NCBI RefSeq assembly: GCF_003967015.1
Contig: NZ_AP017560.1
Span: 2,852,001-2,916,000, forward strand
DNA length: 64,000 nt
Source: Pseudanabaena sp. ABRG5-3
GTDB lineage: Bacteria > Cyanobacteriota > Cyanobacteriia > Pseudanabaenales > Pseudanabaenaceae
Reading direction: 5' to 3'
Below, in pieces: positions 1,256-41,514 of this stretch. Position 1 is the stretch's first letter. Each line of letters opens with the position of its first letter. Under the pieces are notes generated by a model. That model had not been told where the DNA came from and did no database searches. It saw only the letters and a list, made by a program, of their open reading frames with translations. The translations under genes and the position numbers were made by a program.

Positions 1256-2437
1256 ATGTATGACTTCATTATTATAGGTGGTGGAATTGTTGGTCTTGCA
1301 ACGGGAATGACTTTGAGTCAGCAACATCCTCACGCCAAACTGTTGATTTTAGAAAAAGAAAACCAATGGTCGTTACACCAAACAGGTAATAATAGCGGTG
1401 TGATTCATTCTGGTATTTACTATAAACCAGATAGTTTTAAAGCTAAATTCTGCCGTGATGGTAATGCCTCTATGGCGGCGTTTTGCCAGAAATATGATAT
1501 TGGTCACGAAATATGTGGCAAGGTAATTGTCGCGACCCATCCCCAAGAGTTGCAGTTACTTGAAGATCTTTATCAACGTGGTCTCGCCAATGGACTTAAA
1601 GTAACAAAAATCAGTGCCGAAGAAGTTAGAGAAATTGAGCCCTATGTAAATTGTGTTGCGGGGCTGCGTGTATTTTCCACAGGGATTGTCAACTACCGCC
1701 AAGTATGTACGAAGCTAGTTGAGCTAATTCAGGATAAAGGGGCTGAAATCTTACTCAATGCTCAAGTTACGCAGATCAGAGATATTTCTGGAGGCAAAGA
1801 GATTATTACAAATGCAGGAACTTTTGTAACTCGAATGCTGATCAATTGTGGTGGACTACAAAGCGATCGCCTAGCCAAATTAGATCATGTTGATCCACAG
1901 GCACAAATTATTCCTTTTCGTGGCGAATATTACGAGTTAAAGCCTGAAAAGCGCCACTTAGTAAAAACCCTTATTTATCCTGTTCCTAATCCTAATTTTC
2001 CTTTTTTGGGTGTTCATTTCACCAAAATGATTGATGGTACTGTCCATGCTGGACCAAATGCTGTCCTTAGCCTCAAACGTGAAGGATATCAAAAAATGGA
2101 TTTTGATTTTCAAGATGCTGCCGAAATTTTGTCCTATTCTGGATTTTGGAAGCTAGCATCAAAGTATTCAAGAGATGGTATTCAAGAAATCATTCGTTCT
2201 TTCAGTAAAGCTGCATTTGTCCATAGTCTCCAGCAACTAATTCCTGAAGTAAAAGCAGATGATTTAGTCCCAACGCATTCAGGTGTACGCGCCCAAGCTC
2301 TCAAACCGAATGGACAATTAGTTGATGATTTTTTAATCATTAAAGATCGAAGTTCTATCCATATTTGTAATGCACCATCTCCCGCAGCTACCTCTTCTTT
2401 AGAAATTGGTAAAGCGATCATGAAGGAAATCACTTAA
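1256..2437 (+). CDS. lhgO: L-2-hydroxyglutarate oxidase (FAD-dependent)
   Basis: A 393-residue flavoprotein of the DAO fold. Residues 4-13 carry the FAD dinucleotide motif IIIGGGIVGL, followed by an acidic strand end (ILEKE). The segment TGNNSGVIHSGIYY near residues 44-57 is characteristic of the LhgO/YgaF branch. The C-terminal PSPAATSSLEIGK is the second FAD contact of the family. LhgO oxidises L-2-hydroxyglutarate to 2-oxoglutarate and passes electrons to quinone; it removes the by-product of promiscuous malate dehydrogenase activity. Length is normal for the family and no membrane segment is visible. It is monocistronic, with a repeat palindrome upstream and a hairpin downstream. Confidence 0.88.
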   Translation: MYDFIIIGGGIVGLATGMTLSQQHPHAKLLILEKENQWSLHQTGNNSGVIHSGIYYKPDSFKAKFCRDGNASMAAFCQKYDIGHEICGKVIVATHPQELQLLEDLYQRGLANGLKVTKISAEEVREIEPYVNCVAGLRVFSTGIVNYRQVCTKLVELIQDKGAEILLNAQVTQIRDISGGKEIITNAGTFVTRMLINCGGLQSDRLAKLDHVDPQAQIIPFRGEYYELKPEKRHLVKTLIYPVPNPNFPFLGVHFTKMIDGTVHAGPNAVLSLKREGYQKMDFDFQDAAEILSYSGFWKLASKYSRDGIQEIIRSFSKAAFVHSLQQLIPEVKADDLVPTHSGVRAQALKPNGQLVDDFLIIKDRSSIHICNAPSPAATSSLEIGKAIMKEIT

Positions 2438-2517
2438 CCCATAGATCTATTTCATCAATCTTTTGCAAAATTAGTAGTTTTGATTTCACTTAATTTAATT
2501 TGCGGTAGTGCTAAATA

Positions 2518-2556
2518 GGCAAGGATGGGCGACGCTTCGCGTCGCCCATCCTTGCC
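2518..2556. terminator. gene-end hairpin
   Basis: Perfect 18-bp arms (GGCAAGGATGGGCGACGC and its complement) around loop TTC, between the convergent LhgO and TPR genes. There is no U-run outside the stem, so termination is an inference from position. Confidence 0.6.
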
Positions 2557-2564
2557 AGAATTAC

Positions 2565-3944
2565 CTAATTTGCTAAGCCAAATATTTGTTTAATTGTTAC
2601 TTCCATTGCGAGCCTTCCATTAGCACTACGCCAAGGGGGCATCATGATAAGCCCTTTGATCACTAAAACAATTCCCCATACCTTGTACCAAAACTCATTA
2701 CGTCCCCAATAAGCATTGGCGATCGCCATTGTAACCAGTCCCTTATCTTCTAAAGAATCAGATTTTGCAACAAGTGACTGAGCCATATTCAGATAGAAAT
2801 CTGATTCATCTTTGTTTTTTAAAAGAAAATGACAGGCAAAAATATGTACAGTGATTATAGCCATATTCCCTTTAGCATCAAATTTCTGCATTAACTCTAA
2901 TGCTTTTTCAAAGTATGATAGTGCTTCTTGATATCGTCTCAACTTGTAGCAATAGATTACTCCCAAGCAGTTTAACGCTGAGATTTCATTGTGTTTATTC
3001 CCAATCTCACACATAACAGCTAAAGCTTCTTGAGCATATTTTAGGGCTTTATCTATCTGTTTTAACATGACGTAGCATTGCGATAATCCCTCTAATGCTG
3101 AAGCACTTCCAAGTCTATTATTACTTTCTTCGCTAATATCTAATTGGCGTAGAAGGGCAATCAATACTTGATCATATTGACCAACATTCAAATATGCTCT
3201 ACTGATATCGTTAAGGCAAGAACTTTCCATTTCCTGATCGCCAATTTCACGAGCTATCTCTAGGGATTCTTCTAGAAAATTTAGTCCTTTTTGCTGATAT
3301 TTTTTCTTGTTTTGAGTCGTTCCTAACGCATAGAAAGCATATCCTAAGTCATTTAAAGCATAACCTTCTTGTTTGCGATCGCCTATTTCACGAGCAATAT
3401 CTAGCTGCTGCTGAAACGAGGCGATCGCCTCAGAATAATCCTGTTTGATCCGTTGAATCCCTCCTAACCCACTGATCGCTTGTGCTTCTGCTTGAAGGTT
3501 ATTGGCTTGACGAGCGAGTTTTAGTTGCTGTTGATAATAATTACAAGATTTATCAAAATCACTGAGATTATAAAAAGCTCGTCCCAATCCATTCAGACAG
3601 ACTAAATCTTGCTCTGCACTTACCTTTCCTAAAAGATTTTGATATAGCTCAATCTGCTCTCGATAGTAGCCCCAAATCCTTAACTGCTCATGTAATTCCT
3701 TTGACATCGGACGACATGATAGAACCTTTCCTGCCTTTTGCCATTCTGACATTTCGCAAAGATGATGAAAAGCTTGTAAATAACGATCCACTTTTTCGAG
3801 ATTTTTTGCCTTCTCTGGTGGCTCATCCTCAACGGTTAAGAAATAGGCGATCGCATTATAAGCATCAAGGCGATCAAGAGGAACGCGCCTTGTATCAATT
3901 TCTAATGCAGCATAAAGTTTCTGTCCTGCGGTCAAATTCATCAT
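2565..3944 (-). CDS. TPR-repeat protein; in-frame C-terminal half of a split STAND protein
   Basis: 459 residues made largely of tetratricopeptide repeats of 40 residues (LGRAFYNLSDFDKSCNYYQQ, then ALNDLGYAFYALG, CLNDISRAYLNVGQYDQ, ALNCLGVIYCYKLRRYQEALSYFEKAL), followed by a hydrophobic C-terminal segment near residues 415-440. The first ATG lies two codons after the TAG stop of the upstream NB-ARC gene and is in the same frame (TAG AGA CTC ATG ATG). NB-ARC-TPR proteins of cyanobacteria are normally one chain, and the first 100 residues here (domain linking ATPase to repeats) look like the middle of such a chain. It could be a separately translated sensor subunit, a readthrough product, or half of a pseudogene. 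Confidence 0.8.
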   Translation of the reverse strand: MMNLTAGQKLYAALEIDTRRVPLDRLDAYNAIAYFLTVEDEPPEKAKNLEKVDRYLQAFHHLCEMSEWQKAGKVLSCRPMSKELHEQLRIWGYYREQIELYQNLLGKVSAEQDLVCLNGLGRAFYNLSDFDKSCNYYQQQLKLARQANNLQAEAQAISGLGGIQRIKQDYSEAIASFQQQLDIAREIGDRKQEGYALNDLGYAFYALGTTQNKKKYQQKGLNFLEESLEIAREIGDQEMESSCLNDISRAYLNVGQYDQVLIALLRQLDISEESNNRLGSASALEGLSQCYVMLKQIDKALKYAQEALAVMCEIGNKHNEISALNCLGVIYCYKLRRYQEALSYFEKALELMQKFDAKGNMAIITVHIFACHFLLKNKDESDFYLNMAQSLVAKSDSLEDKGLVTMAIANAYWGRNEFWYKVWGIVLVIKGLIMMPPWRSANGRLAMEVTIKQIFGLAN

Positions 3945-35774: not shown

Positions 35775-36701
35775 ATGATCGACATACCGTTCACCCTAGA
35801 CCAATTACGCATTCTCAAGGCGATCGCTGCTGAAGGTAGCTTTAAACGCGCCGCCGATAGCCTTTATGTGTCTCAACCCGCCGTTAGCTTGCAAGTCCAA
35901 CATCTAGAACGACAGCTAGATGTACCTTTGTTCGATCGCGGGGGCAGAAGGGCACAGTTGACGGAGGCTGGACAGTTGTTACTTTCCTATGGCGATCGCA
36001 TTTTAAGCCTTTGTCAGGAAACTTGCCGTGCCATTGATGATTTACAAAATCTCAATGGTGGGACTCTAATTATAGGTGCTAGTCAAACAACTGGAACCTA
36101 TCTGATACCACAAATGATTGGTTTATTTCGCAAAAAATACCCTGAAGTCTCGGTACAACTCCATGTCCATTCTACAAGGCGAACGGCTTGGAGTGTTGCG
36201 AATGGGCAAGTAGACTTGGCAATTATTGGTGGTGAAATTCCTGCGGATTTGGTGGATTCTTTAGAGGTTACCCCCTATGCTGAAGATGAGCTAGCGCTAA
36301 TTCTACCAACTTCTCATGCTTTAGCACAGGTAGGAGCCTTGCCCATTGATGAGTTATATAAGCTGCAATTTATTACCCTAGACTCGCAGTCAACCATTCG
36401 TAAGGCGATTGATCGGGTGTTGTTAGATAGCGGCGTTGATCCCCGTCAGTTAGAAATCGCGATGGAGCTGAATTCGATTGAGGCGATTAAAAATGCGGTA
36501 CAGGCAGGTTTGGGGGCAGCATTTTTGTCAGTGACGGCGATCGAAAAGGAGCTGCAAATGGGAGCTTTGCAGCAGGTCAGGATTGATGGGGTAGTAATTA
36601 AGCGCATGTTGTTACAAATTCGTAATCCCAATCGCTATCGGTCTAAGGCAACGGAAGCTTTTTGTAACGAGGTTCTACCAATATTTCGAGACAAGACTTA
36701 G
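35775..36701 (+). CDS. rbcR: LysR-type regulator RbcR
   Basis: 308 residues from the ATG at 35775 ([20 protein letters not shown]); an earlier ATG at 35739 would overlap the divergent gene. The winged helix ([28 protein letters not shown]) and the LysR effector domain ([39 protein letters not shown]) fit the RbcR/Ycf30 subgroup very closely. It activates RuBisCO or CO2-fixation genes in response to metabolites such as NADPH or RuBP. The stop codon falls at the start of a hairpin. Separation from the CcmR/CmpR subgroups is from memory of sequence. Confidence 0.9.
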
Positions 36702-36731
36702 TAAAAGGGGGCGCTTCGCGCCCCCTTTTAC
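36701..36731. terminator. gene-end hairpin
   Basis: Perfect 14-bp arms (GTAAAAGGGGGCGC) with loop TTC, starting at the last base of the rbcR stop. Confidence 0.75.
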
Positions 36732-36784
36732 TTAATGGTGATTGCGATACAATGGTAGCCCTGACATAAATTTCACTTTGCGCT

Positions 36785-37831
36785 ATGAGCTACTTCCGCC
36801 CTGCTATTGATGCGATGACTGGCTATGTCCCTGGGGAGCAACCCAAGTCGGGGATTAAAGTTATCAAACTGAATACTAACGAAAATCCCTATCCGCCCTC
36901 ACCAAAGGCGATCGCGGCTTTGCAAACTATTGATAGTGATTCATTGCGGCGCTATCCTGACCCCTTTGCCCATGAGTTTTGTCAAGCGGTAAGTGATGCT
37001 CTTGGTGTGCCTAAGGATTGGGTAATTGTGGGCAATGGTAGTGACGATGTTTTAAATATTTTAATTAGGGCTTGTGCGGAAAGTGGCGATCGCAAGGTGG
37101 TTTATCCGATGCCGACCTATGTGCTTTACCGCACCCTTGCAGCAATGCAGCCATCAGAGACGGTAGAAATCCCCTATGGCGAAAATTTTCAATTGCCCAT
37201 TGATGAACTTGTAGCGGCAAATGGCGCAGTAACTTTTATTGCTTCACCCAACAGCCCTTCGGGTCATGCTGTACCTCTCGATGATTTACGCCAATTAGCA
37301 AAAAGGGTTTCAGGTATTGTGGCGATCGATGAAGCCTATGTCGATTTTGCGGAATACTCGGCTTTAAGCTTGGTACAGGAATTTGACAATGTGATTGTGT
37401 TACGCACTTTATCCAAAGGTTATTCTCTTGCAGGGTTGCGTCTAGGCTTTGGTATTGCTAATCCCAAGCTTTTATCTGGGCTATTTAAGGTTAAAGATAG
37501 CTATAACATTGATGCCGTAGCGATCGCTGTGGGGACTGCCGCCATGCGCGATCAAGAATATAAAAATGCCAATGCTGAAAAAGTCAAAATTTCAAGAACT
37601 AAACTTACTTTAGATCTCAAAAAACTCGACTATACCGTTCTAGAGTCGCATGGTAATTTTGTGCTTGCCACTCCACCCAAAGGCAACGCTGAAGAGATTT
37701 ATTTAAAACTCAAAGAATCTGGCATTTTAGTCCGCTATTTCAATCAAGCAGGACTAGCTGATAAATTACGAATTACCGTTGGCACGGATGAACAAAATCA
37801 AGCTCTAATCGATTTTCTATCGACTCTTTAG
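36785..37831 (+). CDS. hisC: histidinol-phosphate aminotransferase
   Basis: 348 residues, a fold-type I PLP enzyme. Seen are LNTNENPYPPSPKAI (substrate loop), VGNGSDDVLNIL, IDEAYVDF, and Lys211 in LRTLSKGYSLAGLRLGFG forming the Schiff base, followed by Arg219 and the C-terminal RITVGTDEQN phosphate contact. It converts imidazole acetol phosphate to histidinol phosphate. The last 59 codons are repeated in diverged form at 40393-40569, at the far end of an accessory segment, so this gene has gained or exchanged its 3' end. Confidence 0.95.
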   Translation: MSYFRPAIDAMTGYVPGEQPKSGIKVIKLNTNENPYPPSPKAIAALQTIDSDSLRRYPDPFAHEFCQAVSDALGVPKDWVIVGNGSDDVLNILIRACAESGDRKVVYPMPTYVLYRTLAAMQPSETVEIPYGENFQLPIDELVAANGAVTFIASPNSPSGHAVPLDDLRQLAKRVSGIVAIDEAYVDFAEYSALSLVQEFDNVIVLRTLSKGYSLAGLRLGFGIANPKLLSGLFKVKDSYNIDAVAIAVGTAAMRDQEYKNANAEKVKISRTKLTLDLKKLDYTVLESHGNFVLATPPKGNAEEIYLKLKESGILVRYFNQAGLADKLRITVGTDEQNQALIDFLSTL

Positions 37832-37852
37832 CATTTTCTGATGTGCATGGGT

Positions 37853-37984
37853 ACTGGTTCCGCCTGATAGGATTATCTGGCTAAAATCCTTGTGATGCAG
37901 GGATTTTAGCCATTTTAAGATCAAATCATCGAAATCCAGATACCCAAAGAGTTTCAGGGCTTTGCCCCATATCGCGGAACCAGT
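37853..37984. mobile_element. MITE-like element after hisC
   Basis: A 132-bp segment bounded by perfect 11-bp inverted repeats (ACTGGTTCCGC) and holding an inner 12-bp hairpin (TGGCTAAAATCC). It has no coding capacity and no obvious target duplication. It stands at the junction between hisC and the accessory genes. Confidence 0.55.
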
Positions 37985-38018
37985 GTCGCCAATTAGTCCC
38001 ATTAAAACTATAGTCGTA

Positions 38019-38885
38019 TTATTTAGTTGATGTAGACAAAATCAAACCTATATCTACTTTCTCAAGTATGTGGTCAGTCCAGTCAGGAAGGTCTTCTTCT
38101 CCTAAAACTGATGCACCGAGATTAGTATAAGTTTCCTTAGTGTGGTTATAGGTATCAAATAAACGGGAATAGTCAGGAAACTCAGGCTTAGGTGGTAAAG
38201 CGACAATAGCCAACGGGAAACTACTATCTAATTCTTTCACATCTTTTATCCACCAAGACAGAGCATCTAACGTTTCCTTATGGGTGCGAATCTCAAAAGA
38301 AACTCCGTGAGCAGCTAGATATGGATGACCATTAGCTACTGCTACATCGAAATTATGAGAATCGCTAACTCCCTTAATGATCGCACTACCATCTTTTTTG
38401 AAAAGCTTGTCTGCATCTTCTTTCCCAAACCGTTTTTTTAAACGATTCTTCACACTAGAAGTAACGATTCTTTTTGCCGACTGGCGATCGCGTACATTTT
38501 GTTCTGTAGGAATTTCATCAACTAAATATGTATTGATAGTATCTTCAAAAAGACTATCAACATTTTCAAGTGAGCCTCTGGGTTCAGTGAACTGAATACT
38601 ATTAATCCATCCTCGCGAAACTTTACGCAATCGGTCTACCCTACTCTGCTCGTTGTTCGGATCATCATTAGGGAAAAGCAGACCTTTTTTAGAAGCTCGT
38701 TTCATACGGTCAGCAAAATCACGCAAAAACTTTATATCTTCTTTCCCAAAACACTTGACACGTTCCCAGCTACGTAAAAAATGAACTTTGACAATTTTTT
38801 CATCAAAAACAAGTACACCAATATTGATCCGTTCATCTGCAATCGGATTAGGTACATACTGGATTACACTGTATCTGCTTGCCAT
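38019..38885 (-). CDS. DUF3037 protein paired with HipA-like kinase
   Basis: 288 residues. The start MASRYSVIQYVPNPIADERI, then NIGVLVFDEKIVKVHFLRSW is the DUF3037 signature. The C-terminal half is less conserved (HGVSFEIRTHKETLDALSWW). DUF3037 proteins are commonly encoded right after HipA-like kinases, as here (25 bp from the next gene), and the pair is suspected to be a toxin-antitoxin or defence unit, though this is not shown. Both genes are intact. The pair is flanked by a MITE-like element and by remnants, suggesting a mobile origin. Confidence 0.85.
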   Translation of the reverse strand: MASRYSVIQYVPNPIADERINIGVLVFDEKIVKVHFLRSWERVKCFGKEDIKFLRDFADRMKRASKKGLLFPNDDPNNEQSRVDRLRKVSRGWINSIQFTEPRGSLENVDSLFEDTINTYLVDEIPTEQNVRDRQSAKRIVTSSVKNRLKKRFGKEDADKLFKKDGSAIIKGVSDSHNFDVAVANGHPYLAAHGVSFEIRTHKETLDALSWWIKDVKELDSSFPLAIVALPPKPEFPDYSRLFDTYNHTKETYTNLGASVLGEEDLPDWTDHILEKVDIGLILSTSTK

Positions 38886-38910
38886 AATTGCCTCATTCCC
38901 AGCACAGAAT

Positions 38911-39696
38911 CTAAAAGTTTGCTAGTAAATTATGCTGTCTTTCTATCAAGTATTCTACTAACACTAATCTTTCGTCAATGTTTATGCCCCATTCTTGAGG
39001 TATGTTACAAACCGTTTGCATAATCATTTGTTCGGTTATTTCTCTTAGAGCATTTAAGGCAGGGCTTAAATCTTCATCCTTGAGTTTATATGTGGATACT
39101 ATCAGATGATCAGGCATTGCTGGAGAGAATTTTCTACCTAAACGCTCAACTGTCCACTCAGCGTTACCTACAAAAAAATTACCATGATCGACTGAATAAA
39201 CTAGGCGTGGGGATTGATTTTTATATATGAATTGGTGATCACTTGCATACATCCAACCATAAAGAATTGCTAAGGAAGCAAATCTTTCTAAATTTTTAGA
39301 CTTGTCAAAATGCAAAAAAAGCTCACGGTCATCTGAGCAGTCGGGAATAAATTTTGTGCCATGAGCAATGCCAGTAGCTAAATAGCTAAAATCTGGGTTA
39401 ATTTCAATCAGATCTTGTGAAATTTCGATCAAATATGGCTCACCCACTGGAGCATTCATCGCTTGCCCCAACTTTGCAACAACTCGATCATTAATGATTT
39501 GGCGACCTGCTTGCTTGCCTTTAACTACATATTCACTCCCGTCAATGCCCCTAACCAACACAGGCTTTGCAGAAGATTGCCACCCTCTACGAATAGTTGT
39601 AGCAATAATGGGATCTTCGGGATTGGCGACCGCCTCATCTAATGCTTGACGCAATTTTTCACTACGCGCATTCTGTGACTCAAGGGTTTCTGGCAC
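38911..39696 (-). CDS. HipA-like kinase family protein
   Basis: 261 residues. The N-terminal lobe (WQSSAKPVLVRGIDGSEYVV KG) is followed by RVVAKLGQAMNAPVGEPYLI, then the catalytic-loop equivalents GWMYASDHQFIYKN and the metal-binding VDHGNFF. The protein is much shorter than E. coli HipA (440 residues) and lacks a HipB-type partner, fitting the short HipA-like family that pairs with DUF3037. By analogy it would phosphorylate a translation or tRNA-synthetase target, but no target is known. Transcribed first in the two-gene unit. Confidence 0.82.
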   Translation of the reverse strand: MPETLESQNARSEKLRQALDEAVANPEDPIIATTIRRGWQSSAKPVLVRGIDGSEYVVKGKQAGRQIINDRVVAKLGQAMNAPVGEPYLIEISQDLIEINPDFSYLATGIAHGTKFIPDCSDDRELFLHFDKSKNLERFASLAILYGWMYASDHQFIYKNQSPRLVYSVDHGNFFVGNAEWTVERLGRKFSPAMPDHLIVSTYKLKDEDLSPALNALREITEQMIMQTVCNIPQEWGINIDERLVLVEYLIERQHNLLANF

Positions 39697-39752
39697 AAAT
39701 ATATCTAAGAATCTACAGAAACAAGAATATTATTGTAGACCAGAATATGAGT

Positions 39753-40005
39753 TTAATTAACAGGTTGAAATTGCTCGATCGCATACCTCGCTGCCGATGC
39801 AACCTGTGGATGAGCATCTTTGACAAGATAATTTAAAGCCGACAGACTTTTATCACATTTGGGATGACCAAGAGCCTCAGCCAAACGCTGTCTGGTTAGC
39901 CAATCCTTGGACTGAGCAAACCGTAAAATTTTATCAACACAACGTAGATCGCCAATTTCAATTTCACCTAGAGCCGCGATCGCCGCTACTCCTTTACTGA
40001 AAAAT
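39753..40005 (-). pseudogene. C-terminal remnant of a HEAT-repeat protein
   Basis: The minus strand reads AAIAALGEIEIGDLRCVDKI, then AQSKDWLTRQRLAEALGHPK, NYLVKDAHPQVASAARYAIE and ends QFQPVN-stop at 39753. These are HEAT repeats of the type in bilin lyases and NblB-like proteins. The frame is closed by a stop at its 5' side and no start codon or N-terminal part exists, so it is a fragment, joined directly to unrelated sequence. Confidence 0.65.
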
Positions 40006-40393
40006 GCTTACAAAGATGGACTACAGGCATTAGGAACATATAGCGTCAAAGTTAAACCAACTGAAACCAAAAAATGTGAAGGTAGTGTCGATATTGATGC
40101 TGCGGTTAAGTCTATCTATCCTGAAGAATCGCGATGGGATTATGCGATCAGATATGACAGAAAGACATATTTTATTGAAATTCATAGTGCGGAAACATCT
40201 CAGGTCACACCAGTTTTAAAAAAAATATACATGGTTAAAGGATTTTTTAGTTGCAAAAGCACATAAATTAAATAAAGAAGACAAACGATTTTATTGGATT
40301 GCTTCAGGTAGAAATCATATCTTGAAAGGAAGTGTTCAAGAACGTAAACTAGCCCAATCAGGAATCATGCTGGTTGGGCAGCTTAATTTGTGA
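39991..40393 (+). pseudogene. frameshifted gene of unknown function
   Basis: Plus-strand codons from 39991 give LKNAYKDGLQALGTYSVKVK, then DIDAAVKSIYPEESRWDYAI, RYDRKTYFIEIHSAETSQV. In an A-run near 40218-40224 the frame shifts, after which WLKDFLVAKAHKLNKEDKRF, YWIASGRNHILKGSVQERKL and LAQSGIMLVGQLNL-stop continue. A complete protein of about 140 residues is implied. I do not recognise the family; no start codon is obvious, and its 5' end abuts the HEAT remnant. Confidence 0.6.
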
Positions 40394-40569
40394 TTAATTT
40401 TGTCCTTGCTACACCATCAAAAGGCAATGTTGAAGAGATTTATTTAAAACTCAAAGAATTTGGCATTTTAGTCCGCTATTTCCATCAAGCAGGAATAGCT
40501 GATAAGTTACGGATTACTGTTGGCACTGATGAGCAGAATCTATCTTTGATTAATGCTTTGAGTAATTGA
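40393..40569 (+). pseudogene. hisC: diverged copy of the hisC 3' end
   Basis: 58 codons and a stop encode NFVLATPSKGNVEEIYLKLK, then EFGILVRYFHQAGIADKLRI and TVGTDEQNLSLINALSN. This matches the C-terminus of the intact HisC at about five of every six residues, with clear DNA similarity. It has no start or catalytic part. It is followed by a good terminator, which suggests that this is the original hisC end and terminator, displaced by an insertion. Confidence 0.88.
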
Positions 40570-40597: not shown

Positions 40598-40638
40598 AAA
40601 AAACTAGAAGTAGTCAAAAATACTCCTTCTAGTTTTTT
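40598..40638. terminator. intrinsic terminator
   Basis: Arms AAAAAACTAGAAG / CTTCTAGTTTTTT (13 bp) ending in a T-run, after the displaced hisC end. No other gene needs it on this strand. Confidence 0.75.
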
Positions 40639-40729
40639 GATGCTAGACAGTTAAAGCATGATTGCTCTATTTGCGGCTTTTTTATTGGAATAAAATAAAT
40701 ATTTCAGAATCCATCCCCATTAGCTAGCT

Positions 40730-41386
40730 CTAATCTAGCTGTTGTTGTATCCAATCTCTAAAACTACGAATTAATTGATTGTCATCAATTGATTCTGCTT
40801 GTTGCAAAAAAGCATCTAAAATCGCACTAGAAATAATTGGAAAAGTAGAGCTAGATTCCTGCTCTAGATAGCCATCACTTTGCAAAGCATAAATTTTTAT
40901 ACCTGTTTTGTTGTATCGCCAAATTTCAGCTACACCTAACTGTTGATAGATAGAAAATCGGCGATCGCTAGAGCTATAAAGGTCAACTTCAACAACTAAA
41001 TCGGGTGCGGGATCGTTGTATATATCAATTTTAAATCTACGAACTAGGTGAGCATTTTGAATATAAAAACAAGAGTCTGGCTCTACGCCCACTGCCAAAT
41101 CCTTGCGATTAAATGTTGTAGAGCCAAAGCTTTTAATGCTTAACCCTAGCTCCTCGGTCAAGGTGATAATTAGTCTTTCTAAGATGCGATTGATCGCTTC
41201 ATGTAGTTCTAATGGCATCCTGATTTCTAAAACTTCATGATAGTAGGCTAAACGAGCAGTACGATGTTCGCCCATTTCGTTCAGCAAGGCTTCATAGGTT
41301 TGCCAGCTAATATTTGGCAATATTGCGGTATTACTAGCAAACAATGGGGCAATTTCTTTTTGCGGAAGTATAGGACTAATAGTCAT
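40730..41386 (-). CDS. Uma2-family (DUF820) putative endonuclease
   Basis: 218 residues from the ATG at 41386; a longer frame would run through the tRNA gene. The restriction-enzyme-like fold shows the motif pattern RLAYYHEVLEIRMPLELHEA, AVGVEPDSCFYI, and the active-site strand PAPDLVVEVDLYSSSDRRF with Asp and Glu-Val-Asp, in place of PD-(D/E)xK. The family is greatly expanded in cyanobacteria and nuclease activity is presumed, not shown. It starts 27 bp downstream of the tRNA-Ala gene on the same strand and may be cotranscribed with it. Confidence 0.8.
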   Translation of the reverse strand: MTISPILPQKEIAPLFASNTAILPNISWQTYEALLNEMGEHRTARLAYYHEVLEIRMPLELHEAINRILERLIITLTEELGLSIKSFGSTTFNRKDLAVGVEPDSCFYIQNAHLVRRFKIDIYNDPAPDLVVEVDLYSSSDRRFSIYQQLGVAEIWRYNKTGIKIYALQSDGYLEQESSSTFPIISSAILDAFLQQAESIDDNQLIRSFRDWIQQQLD

Positions 41387-41412
41387 AGGGTTGCCCTTGC
41401 TATTAAGAAAAA

Positions 41413-41485
41413 TGGAGAATAGGAGGCTCGAACCCCTGACCTCTGCGGTGCGATCGCAGCACTCTACCAACTGAGCTAATTCCCC
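41413..41485 (-). tRNA. tRNA-Ala (anticodon CGC)
   Basis: A complete 73-nt cloverleaf on the minus strand. The acceptor is GGGGAAT/ATTCTCC plus A73, D arm GCTC/GAGT, anticodon arm CTGCG-loop-CGCAG with anticodon CGC (complement at 41450-41452), and T arm AGGGG-TTCGAGC-CTCCT. CCA is not encoded. The anticodon arm contains a complete HIP1 octamer GCGATCGC. It reads alanine codon GCG. Confidence 0.92.
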
Positions 41486-41514
41486 AATCTAGGATATGTA
41501 TATTAGCATATTTC

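Follow-up and report, generated by a model that had tools for sequence, protein, structure and literature searches.

A second hisC 3′ end in a variable, defence-like interval between hisC and a tRNA-Ala gene of Pseudanabaena sp. ABRG5-3

Homology-facilitated illegitimate recombination has been proposed as the process behind the type VI secretion system (T6SS) arrays of Vibrio cholerae (PMC5361080) and behind dimorphic loci of Escherichia coli (PMC2884548). As the former source presents it, effector-immunity modules are displaced by means of one homologous anchor and one illegitimate joint, with new modules added beside a conserved gene and leftovers of older modules remaining. A different route is described for prophage e14 in the E. 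coli gene icd, where the metabolic gene receives a diverged 3′ end from the incoming DNA and another 3′ end is found beyond the element (PMC4759930). Among small defence systems, the PDC-M66 type (PDC-M66/DS-6/HipAD) combines adjacent genes for a HipA-like kinase and a DUF3037 protein; loss of the kinase is described as abolishing phage defence and loss of the DUF3037 protein as toxic (PMC12548924, also PMC13092281). Here we describe the stretch between the histidine biosynthesis gene hisC and a tRNA-Ala(CGC) gene in Pseudanabaena sp. ABRG5-3. It lies in a window of 64,000 nucleotides (C1:2852001-2916000 of the 5.66-Mb genome), in which a second copy of the hisC 3′ end stands downstream of the intact gene.

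We consider it somewhat probable that the hisC-tRNA-Ala(CGC) interval serves as an exchange site at which small anti-phage defence cassettes are swapped without an integrase, and that the second hisC end (hereafter the remnant) is the stranded left border of a Uma2 cassette from another lineage. As in the V. cholerae arrays, the arrangement fits one homologous anchor combined with one illegitimate joint. It is unlike them in that defence candidates here follow a biosynthetic gene, the anchors are hisC and a tRNA gene, and a fragment of an anchor gene is among the leftovers; the mechanism is inferred here as it is there. A literature search at the level of titles and abstract openings found no naming of this hisC site.

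The order of features given by the first-pass annotation was borne out by Pfam matches and alignments. Intact hisC (36785-37831, plus strand, 348 aa) is followed by a miniature inverted-repeat transposable element (MITE 1), a DUF3037/HipA_2 gene pair, a HEAT fragment, a broken gene and the remnant (40395-40569, plus strand; homology runs from 40395 to the TGA at 40569). The remnant had been said to match the hisC C-terminus at about 83% of residues, and we find 84% over hisC residues 291-346 (E 5.4e-23). The target being a biosynthetic gene was likewise correct. The broken gene, previously a pseudogene without identity, is indeed broken, but can be assigned as a 5′-truncated and frameshifted homologue of PDC-M56B (39976-40393, plus strand, 88% to that of the relative G001). 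Missed altogether were a second, decayed MITE, a Uma2 gene and the tRNA-Ala gene that closes the unit. The unit thus extends past the stretch described earlier, as far as the tRNA-Ala(CGC) gene at 41412. Neither does the content form a single cassette as had been claimed, the stacked pieces showing at least three different affinities.

Genus searches covered 26 genomes, this one and 25 relatives. The hisC locus was inspected in 24 of the relatives (G009 gave weak, paralogue-like matches only), with about 10 kb of DNA behind hisC for most and 1.5 kb for G038. PDC-M56 genes stand behind hisC in six relatives and as a remnant in one, and Uma2 genes in four, one of which also has M56, and as a remnant in one; eight sites are empty and five hold other sequence. 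M56 lies between hisC and the tRNA gene in G002, G022, G008 and G014, accompanied by Uma2 in G004, while G001 has M56 behind hisC without the tRNA gene. Uma2 alone lies between the two borders in G010, G006 and G016, in all of which it is convergent with hisC. Empty sites (4-146 bp) were found in G012, G003, G005, G021, G017, G013 (with a run of N), G039 and G040, and other sequence within the inspected DNA in G015, G018, G011, G007 and G038. Since relatives hold differing modules or none behind hisC, the interval is a variable site with defence-like contents, and this short stretch apparently serves to house candidate phage-defence genes that can be exchanged. In G019, a small insertion and ATPase fragments behind hisC make up a decayed M56 module; in G020 (C29, L191), an internally deleted Uma2 gene lies between hisC and the tRNA gene, with a MITE 2-family copy beside the latter. 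A second hisC 3′ end was seen in none of the relatives: 23 of 25 gave one match each and G009 and G011 none, the hisC of G011 being too diverged for this search, so that an equally diverged second end would escape it. Absence of the pattern from all relatives had been put forward as evidence against the cassette idea; the two-ended pattern was indeed seen in none of them, but the site is variable in most relatives.

The window itself stacks an M56 remnant, an intact PDC-M66/HipAD-like pair and a Uma2 gene. The pair consists of genes for a 288-aa DUF3037 protein (PDC-M66B, 38019-38885, minus strand, PF11236 1.1e-12) and a 261-aa HipA_2 kinase-like protein (PDC-M66A, 38911-39696, minus strand, PF20613 2.2e-13), both intact. 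PADLOC models matched them at 1e-11 (M66B) and 2.7e-6 (M66A), the latter weakly and partially, over residues 40-102 only, and matched the Uma2 protein (PDC-S17, 40730-41395, minus strand) at 1.9e-40. In this candidate pair, the adjacency of a HipA-like kinase gene and a DUF3037 gene and the matches to both M66 models are as in the described PDC-M66/DS-6/HipAD systems. The two-part M56 system, an ATPase (A) with a small partner (B), is incomplete in the window, where A is gone and B is broken. In six relatives a gene for an AAA ATPase of about 380 aa lies directly behind hisC and is followed by an intact homologue of the broken gene; the G001 proteins match PDC-M56A at 5.3e-177 and PDC-M56B at 4.3e-57. 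An M56A gene probably once stood behind the hisC of the window too, since its 11-bp spacer CATTTTCTGAT (37832-37842, plus strand) is close to the hisC-PDC-M56A spacer of relatives, which reads CATTTTCTAAT in G002 and G014.

The 3′ end of hisC itself goes with the contents of the site. In all eight genomes with M56 or an M56 remnant, the window included, the protein ends LS[ITV][LF] (..DFLSTL* in the window), while in the eight empty-site genomes it ends LIG or LIC in seven and EVV in G013. Over the last ~36 bp, tail type and presence of M56 thus agree in all 16 of these genomes. A hisC tree made without the last 36 bp needs 5 changes for each trait, and four of four independent pairs agree. 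Mean identity over the last 33 nt is 81.0% within the M56 group, 76.6% within the empty group and 64.0% between them, whereas over the 300 nt before them the groups do not separate (84.8%, 82.8% and 83.2%, respectively). When G008 (M56) is compared with G017 (empty), 27 aligned hisC columns differ and 12 of these fall in the last 40; the empty pairs G012/G003 and G012/G005 each show 1 difference in the last 40 columns, against 85 and 112 overall. Since the last ~36 bp go with M56 and the preceding 300 nt do not, the left end of the exchanged unit seems to fall within hisC, with cassettes carrying their own hisC tail. The earlier claim that the cassette carried hisC sequence is upheld to this extent, that M56 cassettes at this site go together with one particular type of hisC 3′ end.

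An element-linked 3′ end of this kind is also the expected trace of an integrase-borne island, such as e14, which supplies its own icd end (PMC4759930). The two hisC ends would then be attL- and attR-like repeats of an element that has since lost its integrase. The first-pass annotation had treated 3′-end replacement as a trait of tRNA-gene integrases; the e14 case, as described in PMC4759930, shows the same at a metabolic gene. The statement of the first-pass annotation that no integrase is present was corroborated: Pfam found none among the five named open reading frames (ORFs) and four further 61-80 aa ORFs of the interval, and a tyrosine-integrase search found none in the window, the nearest lying ~84 kb off. 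This search took in the present genome and ten relatives that have a module or module remnant behind hisC (G001, G002, G004, G006, G008, G010, G014, G016, G020 and G022). Tyrosine integrases occur in all 11 genomes, yet always on a contig other than that of the hisC site or, where the contig is a whole chromosome, at a distance from the site; serine recombinases were outside the search. Furthermore, the right border is a tRNA gene and the joints vary between cassettes. While e14 uses site-specific recombination at 11-bp repeats, the hisC site shows modules of one or two genes from several donors. We therefore regard a lost-integrase island as very unlikely.

The HEAT fragment (39753-39987, minus strand) is the 3′ part of a HEAT-repeat gene; it is 84% identical to the HEAT protein of G006 over residues 153-223 of the latter. 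In G006 a HipA_2/DUF3037 pair sits between the HEAT gene and a putative glk gene, and these two genes adjoin without the pair in G000, G022, G020 and G015. On this basis the HEAT fragment is read as passenger DNA from a donor with the pair beside its HEAT gene, as in G006. The window switches from HEAT to M56B within the 12-bp GCGATCGCCGCT (39976-39987), which contains a HIP1 octamer. The complete 12-mer is shared by the G001 M56B gene and 5 of 18 HEAT homologues; the octamer is present in all 18 HEAT homologues and in only one of six M56B relatives. Random joints within the window overlapped by at least 12 bp in 8 of 2,999,955 cases. A link between HIP1 and the illegitimate recombination of cloned sequences has been described (PMC4390886, citing earlier work), and the window likewise has a joint of unrelated sequences falling in GCGATCGC. 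It differs in being a natural chromosomal joint, the source describing plasmids and cloned sequences. HIP1 as a general driver of rearrangement was rejected, HIP1 being present in both sequences at 1 of 90 large-indel breakpoints against G002, G022, G021 and G012; the control of 2.6-4.2% is a rough yardstick, as it counts HIP1 near aligned window positions alone. The HIP1 joint of the window therefore stands as a single instance.

At the right border the affinities switch at the tRNA-Ala(CGC) gene (41412-41486, minus strand), as the left flank is G004-like and the sequence from 41487 on is 97% identical to G002 and 73% to G004. The Uma2 region is 89-99% identical to G004 over 41033-41407, falling to 79-80% in the first 150 bp beside MITE 2, from which the Uma2 gene is itself read as a mosaic. 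Both signatures of homology-facilitated illegitimate recombination can thus be pointed to: a homologous joint in the affinity switch across the tRNA gene, and joints with little or no homology in the 12-bp HEAT/M56B overlap and at M56B/remnant, where no overlap is clear by eye.

We then considered the origin of the second hisC end. The remnant agrees with the intact gene at 80.7% of bases (142/176). Its best identity is 83.0% (G008), and that to the sister G002 is 78.4%; no better match outside the genus was found among 291 genomes of the class, which include most of the genus. In a full-length hisC tree with G016 included, the approximately unbiased (AU) test rejected the grouping of the remnant with the intact gene (p=0.003), with the intact gene plus G002 (p=0.005), with G002 alone (p=0.004) and within the six-row hisC clade of the window (p=0.007). 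The full-length tree placed it in an eight-row group with G006, G016, G013, G018, G038, G011 and G007 (support 98/96), a split with support of just 68/81 when the tree is built with neither the remnant nor the last 36 bp. The tests neither support nor reject a grouping with G006 and G016 alone (p 0.20 for tails, 0.18 for full length). Differences between remnant and intact gene number 18 in 148 bases and then 16 in the last 28 (p=8.3e-7), a pattern as between orthologues. The two hisC ends are probably from different lineages. The remnant was most likely imported from an unsampled lineage, and it probably arrived with Uma2, since a hisC end adjoins Uma2 in G010, G006 and G016. Two candidate sources were dropped: a sister relationship with G006 was weak (53/75) and lost once G016 joined the tails, and G015, which by eye has bases like the start of MITE 2 behind its hisC, is only 82% identical to the remnant.

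Several observations weigh against the exchange-site reading, some of which speak for a rival one, a local duplication of the hisC end of this strain with later decay. When G016 is left out, the full-length tree does not reject the pairing of the remnant with the intact gene (p=0.105), nor do trees of the short tails alone (p=0.29, and 0.15-0.18 in a second set, 0.18 being the value for this pairing), so that the previous suggestion of hisC sequence from another lineage stands on the full-length tree with G016 but not on these. The two ends differ at 8, 5 and 13 bases by codon position over 165 bases; the excess of changes at positions 1 and 2 shows decay of the remnant, though these counts proved indecisive on their own between import and duplication. 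Set against a local duplication are its rejection on the full-length tree with G016, the clustering of differences in the last 28 bases where neutral decay would be even (p=8.3e-7), and the differing stop codon and length of the two tails; we hold it to be quite unlikely. There is no close donor among the sampled genomes, the best identity being that to G008, or 88% over a 156-base local match. The last 33 nt of the remnant are of no clear Uma2 type, with 70% identity to G006, 58% to G010 and 73-76% to G018, G007 and G038. The tail types were defined after the tails had been seen, the 16/16 sorting being post hoc, and LS-type tails occur outside the 16 in G010 (Uma2 only, LSNF) and in G015 (no M56 now, LSIL); four independent pairs give a sign test of only p=0.125. 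The 12-mer is missing from 13 of 18 HEAT homologues and five of six M56B relatives, HIP1 is not enriched at the other breakpoints, and the M56B/remnant joint lacks clear microhomology by eye. Finally, DNA uptake by this strain is plausible, ComEC and DprA domains being encoded as in many bacteria, but this is weak evidence, since control genomes, E. coli among them, have these domains as well.

The first-pass annotation had the cassette replacing the resident hisC end and pushing the original downstream. In such a scenario the resident arrangement was hisC with a remnant-type end, then Uma2 and the tRNA gene; a foreign segment carrying M56 and a hisC 3′ end of its own recombined in hisC, and its other end joined inside the resident hisC, leaving the last 175 bp of the resident gene downstream. 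The remnant, Uma2 and the tRNA gene do retain the order found in three relatives, and in the analogous event proposed for T6SS arrays of V. cholerae, the genes that are displaced come to lie downstream (PMC5361080). Window and G002 are 98.2% identical in the LysR gene just upstream of hisC and differ by 9% in hisC (region 36650-37831). Since hisC differs this much and LysR by 1.8%, the hisC of either the window or G002 was probably itself exchanged earlier, which speaks for displacement. A resident end should, however, resemble that of the sister G002. The remnant is only 78% identical to it despite the similarity of the LysR genes, and their pairing was rejected, which makes the downstream copy the more likely foreign one. 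Displacement in this form is not supported, and we judge it unlikely.

Under the exchange-site reading, modules would move between strains as incoming chromosomal DNA (by transformation or similar), recombining on the left side within hisC and on the right side within the tRNA gene or past it. The swaps would result from homologous allelic exchange in hisC and at the tRNA gene, and illegitimate joints would account for the stacking and for how the HEAT-borne pair was captured. An M56 module of the window would have been partly overwritten by the DUF3037/HipA_2 pair arriving with the 3′ end of a HEAT gene, the two being joined in the 12-bp HIP1-containing overlap. A second cassette, made up of a hisC 3′ end, a MITE and Uma2, would have been added at the tRNA side through a homologous joint in the tRNA gene and an illegitimate joint just behind M56B. 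If so, small defence systems may be traded between strains without integrases, with core biosynthetic and tRNA genes as anchors, and scraps of core genes (HEAT, hisC) would label the origin of each cassette. The locus would also provide a natural chromosomal joint at HIP1, a repeat of unsettled function. A more specific version, which we offer tentatively, makes the 3′ end of hisC the left border of interchangeable integrase-free cassettes, each with its own last ~10 hisC codons, which are stacked in tandem with one end each and swapped or excised by homologous recombination between the diverged ends. If this were true, the direct repeats at 37654-37831 and 40395-40569 would permit the HipA_2/DUF3037 cassette to loop out as a circle of ~2.7 kb, leaving hisC-Uma2.

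The remaining features of the interval are small. MITE 1 (37850-37987, 138 bp, no strand assigned) has its outer end 7 bp from the hisC spacer and carries 14-bp terminal inverted repeats; as read from the alignment, those of the window copy agree with each other at 12 of 14 positions. Related copies were aligned from G040, G012, G005, G010 and G020; it is thus short, bounded by inverted repeats and dispersed in relatives, as expected of a MITE. No match to the family besides the window copy was found elsewhere in this genome, and no target-site duplication was seen. MITE 2 (about 40634-40734, limits by eye, no strand assigned) is a decayed member of a family of ~100-bp elements that end near GGYACTGG/CCARTRCC, of which many dispersed copies occur in G015 and G004 (L187, L188, L190, L191). 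A terminator had been placed after the remnant: an AT-rich hairpin can be made out by eye at about 40598-40638, but it is absent from the three terminator-like matches of the scan, of which 2.8 are expected by chance. An Rfam scan gave the tRNA as its sole match. For the intact hisC, the two nearest named records are from Pseudanabaena, at 90 and 85%. Lastly, G001 (C98, L186) has a second, diverged HipA_2/DUF3037 pair at 1608-3256, away from hisC, which adjoins two small genes that are helix-turn-helix/PIN-like by eye.

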